Shown: positions 27,394-27,669 of the stretch, piece by piece
How the letters are laid out: each line of letters begins with the position of its first letter
Position numbering within the stretch: position 1 is the stretch's first letter
Source of the DNA: Archaeoglobaceae archaeon
Lineage (GTDB): Archaea > Halobacteriota > Archaeoglobi > Archaeoglobales > Archaeoglobaceae
DNA length: 55,200 bases
NCBI GenBank assembly: GCA_025057895.1
Contig: JANXEF010000001.1
Span: 63,555 to 118,754 of the forward strand
Direction of reading: 5' to 3'
Translations under genes and position numbers: made by a program
Notes under the pieces: model-generated
The model's input: only the letters and a program-made list of their open reading frames with translations
The model's database searches: none
What the model was told of the DNA's origin: nothing

Positions 27394-27609
27394 TTGCATG
27401 AGATTAGCGACTTTCCAATTCGTTGCTTTTCCTGTGGTTCAGTAATAGGACATCTATACGCAAAATACCTCGAGATGTTGAAGAATGGAAAAACTCCAAA
27501 AGAGACTCTCGATTTACTTGGAATTCAGAGATACTGTTGCAGAAGAATGTTTATTACACACAAATCTTTAATTGGAGAAATAGCTAGATTTCAAGGGGCC
27601 GTGGGGTAG
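27394..27609 (+). CDS. rpoN: RNA polymerase subunit N
   Basis: 71 residues from TTG 27394, which follows GGTGAT at proper spacing; a GTG at 27385 overlapping the S9 stop would add three residues. FPIRCFSCGSVIG and YCCRRMF carry the four zinc-binding cysteines, and the LLGIQRYCCR linker is typical. The protein ends RFQ plus GAVG. The last four codons and the TAG stop lie inside the tRNA-Pro gene beginning at 27595, a 15-nt overlap on the same strand. Confidence 0.93.
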   Translation: MHEISDFPIRCFSCGSVIGHLYAKYLEMLKNGKTPKETLDLLGIQRYCCRRMFITHKSLIGEIARFQGAVG

Positions 27610-27669
27610 CCTGGTATATCCTTTCGGCTTCGGGAGCCGGAGACCCGAGTTCAAATCTCGGCGGCCCCA
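27595..27669 (+). tRNA. tRNA-Pro (anticodon CGG)
   Basis: Acceptor GGGGCCG pairs with CGGCCCC (27662-27668), discriminator A27669. Anticodon stem TCGGC/GCCGG with loop TTCGGGA gives anticodon CGG. T-arm CCGAG/CTCGG with TTCAAAT. The D-arm pairs GGGT with ATCC and has an extra residue before the anticodon stem. No intron, no encoded CCA. It sits within the ribosomal/RNA polymerase operon and begins inside rpoN; it has no separate TATA box that can be told apart from rpoN coding sequence. Confidence 0.92.

Follow-up and report, generated by a model that had tools for sequence, protein, structure and literature searches.

The rpoN gene ends inside a tRNA-Pro gene across the Archaeoglobaceae, probably as a by-product of an old gene order

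We found that the gene for RNA polymerase subunit N, rpoN (27385..27609, + strand), ends inside a tRNA-Pro(CGG) gene (27595..27669, + strand) in the window, the 55,200-nucleotide stretch of Archaeoglobaceae DNA that was analysed. The last four rpoN codons and the stop codon are nucleotides 1-15 of the tRNA (GGGGCCGTGGGGTAG; 27595..27609, + strand, from the sequence, the ARAGORN and Rfam calls and the open reading frame). The 3' end of rpoN reads CAA GGG GCC GTG GGG TAG, and the TAG occupies tRNA nucleotides 13-15 at the edge of the D-stem and D-loop. A preliminary description of this DNA had placed the end of rpoN over the start of the tRNA with the stop in the D-arm, and both the coordinates and the register were confirmed. 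We consider it probable that the arrangement as a whole reflects an old gene order, in which the rpoN stop was lost in the stem of the family and a UAG of the tRNA came to be used, with no regulatory purpose required. The overlap looks like a tolerated accident or by-product of this ancestral order rather than an established regulatory switch.

The identity of both genes was supported by profile searches. RpoN matched Pfam PF01194 (RNA_pol_N; 93 bits, E 1e-26) over residues 10-65 of 74 and profile positions 2-57 of 58, and this domain, with its zinc motif CFSCG...RYCCRRM, identifies the protein as Rpb10-like. The tRNA scored 54 bits with Rfam RF00005 compared to a gathering cut-off of 29, and ARAGORN gave the same place; the discriminator is A and the CCA is not encoded. 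The cloverleaf folds at -37.8 kcal/mol and was retained when folded within the mRNA context, and the acceptor stem GGGGCCG/CGGCCCC and A73 were kept in 21 distinct tRNA sequences from 49 family members. By its score, proline anticodon, A73 and conserved halves, the gene is predicted to encode a functional tRNA.

The junction lies in an operon on the + strand, where the gene order L18e-L13-S9-rpoN-tRNA-rpoK-enolase-S2 was confirmed with Pfam, and the earlier placement of the tRNA inside an L18e-S2 operon was borne out. The first gene encodes ribosomal protein L18e (26142..26525; Ribosomal_L27A, Ribosomal_L18), the start of which may be the ATG at 26151, and it is followed by ribosomal proteins L13 (26535..26993; Ribosomal_L13) and S9 (26990..27388; Ribosomal_S9). 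Downstream of the tRNA are rpoK, which encodes RNA polymerase subunit K (27681..27905; RNA_pol_Rpb6), enolase (27915..29111; Enolase_N, Enolase_C) and ribosomal protein S2 (29108..29701; Ribosomal_S2). A Shine-Dalgarno-like AGGAGGGG (27673..27680, + strand), recognised from the sequence and from spacing in relatives, lies between the tRNA 3' end and rpoK. The tRNA-Pro is embedded in same-strand genes, with the 15-nucleotide overlap upstream and 11 nucleotides to rpoK downstream, and there is no intergenic room for a promoter. It was also noted that the S9 stop and the GTG start of rpoN overlap as GTGA (27385-27388).

The preliminary description had proposed comparing the junction in other Archaeoglobi, and the overlap was conserved in all 50 Archaeoglobaceae genomes with a readable junction, representing 13 genera. 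A total of 55 genomes of the family were searched; five had no rpoN match, and a match was found in every genome that was at least 90% complete (40/40). The window's own genome is a 1.01 Mb assembly that is 79% complete. The same 15 nucleotides were shared in 48/50 genomes, and the other two, both from genus g11, overlap by 10 nucleotides in another frame, with the UAG at tRNA nucleotides 8-10 after a gain of extra sequence. Across the 48 genomes, the shared segment differed only at tRNA nucleotide 9, plus nucleotide 10 in one genome, which indicates that the GAVG tail of RpoN follows the constraint on the tRNA; the predicted tail is a translation of the tRNA sequence. The residue preceding it was H, K, R or Q in these genomes and never a stop. 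Chance or assembly error was ruled out as the source of the overlap, given its conservation in 50 genomes that include single-contig ones. No other credible gene/tRNA overlap of this kind was seen among approximately 94 other tRNAs of three family members, and the longest candidate overlapping frames at those tRNAs gave no match in Pfam and appear to be spurious.

Outside the family, the same gene order was encountered in most genomes of the phylum. Of 81 such genomes, 70 carried tRNA-Pro(CGG) next after rpoN, and none of these 70 had an overlap. The gap between the two genes ranged from 0 to 124 nucleotides, with the rpoN stop flush against G1 of the tRNA in at least 21 genomes; the gap was 6 nucleotides in the sister family f2 and 2-3 nucleotides in family f3. 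Halobacteria-like families had no tRNA-Pro after rpoN, and in a plasmid collection only a haloarchaeal rpoN locus matched, in which rpoN and rpoK lie too close together to accommodate a tRNA. Two family f5 genomes (loci L302 and L291; genomes G103 and G162) carry an rpoN-adjacent tRNA-Pro that looks degenerate, with broken acceptor pairing, which suggests that this copy is being lost in some lineages. Beyond the phylum, tRNA-Pro followed rpoN in 22 of 70 loci, mostly called GGG, and the order with the GGG anticodon was encountered in Methanocaldococcus, Methanothermococcus, Poseidoniales relatives and others. In other Halobacteriota and several Euryarchaea, the rpoN/tRNA-Pro/rpoK order resembles that of the Archaeoglobaceae in tRNA isotype and place, and the tRNA is often flush with the rpoN stop; however, the two genes there have no nucleotides in common, and the anticodon is mostly GGG outside Halobacteriota.

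This pattern is consistent with an ancient tRNA-Pro gene placed between rpoN and rpoK in the L18e-S2 operon, with the ancestral rpoN stop lying against the tRNA 5' end or within a few nucleotides of it. The stop would then have been lost in the Archaeoglobaceae stem; the comparative pattern is observed, and from it we infer the founding mutation. The ribosome would now read four codons into the tRNA and halt at its UAG (U13, A14 and G15). Nearly all tRNAs have A14 and G15, and because the next in-frame stop is this near-universal UAG, the tail would be short and the stop loss could be tolerated and kept. The earlier proposal that the GAVG residues fit a stop pushed into the tRNA agrees with the relatives outside the family, in which rpoN stops just before the tRNA.

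As judged from the sequences, the site is tied to the tRNA-Pro isotype and not to one codon. The anticodon of the rpoN-linked tRNA-Pro was TGG in three congeners (G005, G008 and G009), and the unlinked tRNA-Pro locus carried TGG in G000 and CGG in G005, where the gene neighbourhood is the same (L255 and L256). A reciprocal CGG/TGG exchange between two tRNA-Pro loci was thus observed within one genus (L255, G000:C37; L256, G005:C15; rpoN loci L017, L026 and L115), and the two tRNA-Pro bodies differ by a single base, the wobble base. Every genome has further tRNA-Pro genes with their own promoters. Because the rpoN-linked tRNA can have either CGG or TGG as its anticodon, a coupling specific to CCG is unlikely, and the previously suggested link to tRNA-Pro(CGG) supply is weakened both by the TGG copies and by the other promoter-bearing tRNA-Pro genes of each genome.

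We analyzed the region upstream of the tRNA with a 14-nucleotide promoter model, trained on the upstream regions of 34 other tRNA genes in the window's genome with the rpoN-linked tRNA left out. The motif that it recovered is the archaeal BRE/TATA box, which lies at -33 to -38 for most of the tRNA genes. Its best match upstream of the rpoN-linked tRNA was a BRE/TATA-like box, ACAAATCTTTAATT (27560..27573, + strand), located within the rpoN codons H-K-S-L-I at -35 from the tRNA, which scored 7.9 bits compared to a median of 8.8 for the other tRNA genes. The chance of such a box is approximately 0.3% per coding place, and 4.9% of synonymous recodings of the same peptide score as well; G005 carries the same box. 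From these scores, a separate tRNA promoter is plausible in the window's genome, where, given the normal-looking internal box, the tRNA may not come mainly from the operon mRNA. With models built from their own tRNAs, the rpoN-linked tRNA scored -8.5 bits in G019 and -5.4 bits in G022, compared to medians of 9.3 and 11.8 for other tRNA genes, most of which do have such a box; the other non-scoring tRNAs in these two genomes include a tRNA-Ala(TGC) whose setting resembles an rRNA operon spacer. With a model from 94 tRNAs, which may overlook unusual promoters, 3/50 family members reached the 10th percentile of the scores of true tRNA promoters and the box was weak or absent in 47/50; more distant in-gene boxes in family members scored up to 9.2 bits. 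These low scores in 47/50 relatives make the operon mRNA the likely tRNA precursor in those genomes. The preliminary description had stated that no promoter of the tRNA can be distinguished from rpoN coding sequence, which fails in the window's genome, where ACAAATCTTTAATT matches other tRNA promoters in score and position, and holds in 47/50 relatives.

One reading of the internal box is that the tRNA is transcribed independently in the window's species, with 27560-27573 starting a short pre-tRNA and the rpoN overlap being merely shared DNA. The position, score and low chance of the box and its presence in G005 fit this reading, as do the in-gene start sites that are common in Thermococcus and serve downstream genes (PMC4247193). 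However, the synonymous versions of the peptide that equal the box, together with the conserved H-K-S-V/L-I codons that favour such a box, offer another source for it, and most relatives have a weak box or none. The operon mRNA would also still contain the tRNA and would hence be unprotected from RNase P. We regard independent transcription as a possible but tentative account of the junction in this species.

Returning to the explanation by a tolerated stop loss, RNase P and tRNase Z would excise the tRNA from the operon mRNA in most of the family, as the missing promoter suggests, and in the window's species the in-gene TATA box may additionally start a separate tRNA transcript. Genes for RNase P RNA, tRNase Z and pelota were present in G000 and three relatives. 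A cut before G1 would yield an rpoN mRNA without a stop and a rpoK-enolase-S2 piece that retains its Shine-Dalgarno. A terminating ribosome and the folded tRNA would be mutually exclusive in time on one RNA, the most likely order being translation of rpoN before the tRNA folds. The stop-less rpoN remnants would probably be cleared by aPelota and decay.

Because the stop sits inside the tRNA, cleavage before G1 removes the rpoN stop, and a competition between cutting and translating follows from the geometry. One possibility, which follows the model of the preliminary description, is that this competition forms a regulatory switch, in which RNase P cutting of the operon mRNA competes with RpoN completion. 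The amount of RpoN made would then depend on tRNA-Pro maturation, and the supply of RNA polymerase would be coupled to that of ribosomes and tRNA. This geometry favours a switch, as do the presence of the overlap in 50/50 genomes with zero reversions and the lack of a separate tRNA promoter in most relatives. For the reversions, 1.9 (parsimony) to 5.6 (saturated likelihood length) were expected and none was observed, with P from 0.15 to 0.004, a range that depends on how saturated distances are counted. Some of the pre-tail codons are one step from a stop; the test is ambiguous, and its result is suggestive of some benefit of the overlap but is not proof. We consider this predicted switch unlikely. 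The flush order in many Halobacteriota meets nearly the same conflict without an overlap, and for this reason the overlap is treated as a tolerated by-product with little that is mechanistically new. Further points against a switch are the unfixed anticodon at the site, the changed register in two genomes, the haloarchaea-like families that lack the tRNA altogether, and the seemingly decaying tRNA copy in the two f5 genomes. It is similarly doubtful that the overlap was selected as a checkpoint, at which each operon mRNA either completes RpoN or yields tRNA-Pro plus a stop-less remnant; if this were true, tRNA processing capacity would tune RNA polymerase subunit output in the Archaeoglobaceae.

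In one congener (L115, G008), in which rpoN still runs into the tRNA, the operon is broken directly after the tRNA, which is followed by T6 and an opposite-strand tRNA-Gln. In this genome the rpoN mRNA may end with the tRNA, but it is highly improbable that the fold generally serves as a terminator-like or protective end that shields or ends the upstream mRNA, with the overlap maximizing closeness, since elsewhere rpoK follows within a few tens of nucleotides with a Shine-Dalgarno and excision would take the fold away.

Literature searches found no published report of an rpoN/tRNA-Pro overlap, and several known systems share part of the arrangement. In animal mitochondria, tRNA punctuation also yields nonstop mRNAs (PMC9674279, citing Ojala 1981), and their stops are completed by polyadenylation. 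The rpoN junction is similar in having a tRNA at the 3' coding edge, its probable release from a polycistronic RNA through cuts by RNase P and tRNase Z, and a possible stop-less mRNA. It differs in that the rpoN stop lies inside the tRNA, that RNase P and the rescue machinery are different, and that a single operon site is involved. Stop completion of the mitochondrial type was rejected, as the cut leaves ...TTT CAA and an added A makes no stop, and the same applies to the other codons at that place. In Thermococcus kodakarensis, a tRNA-Lys is co-transcribed in the 5' leader of TK0306 (PMC4247193), which is likewise a tRNA within an archaeal mRNA that needs release by processing; that tRNA is in an untranslated leader, however, and has no coding sequence in common. 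Some archaea have a tRNA-Leu in the alpha/L18e ribosomal protein cluster, in the order rpoD-tRNA-Leu-L18e (PMC10833476). This tRNA gene is embedded in the same large cluster of ribosomal protein and RNA polymerase genes, but it is another tRNA, is placed upstream of L18e and has no reported overlap.

The junction represents a family-wide natural case in which one DNA stretch within a transcription and translation operon serves both as the end and stop of a protein gene and as the 5' portion of a tRNA. It indicates that the conserved UAG of a tRNA can serve as a backup stop once a flush gene loses its own. It also offers a system for testing how archaea deal with mRNAs left stop-less by tRNA processing, which is a little-studied question.

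Two further observations were made. At the rpoK start of several Archaeoglobaceae (L117, L136, L137, L026, L148 and L147), the stretch from the Shine-Dalgarno to the conserved protein start contained none of ATG, GTG and TTG, and ATT is the apparent start codon in most of them. The window also contains an archaeal SRP RNA gene at 1548-1859 (233 bits).
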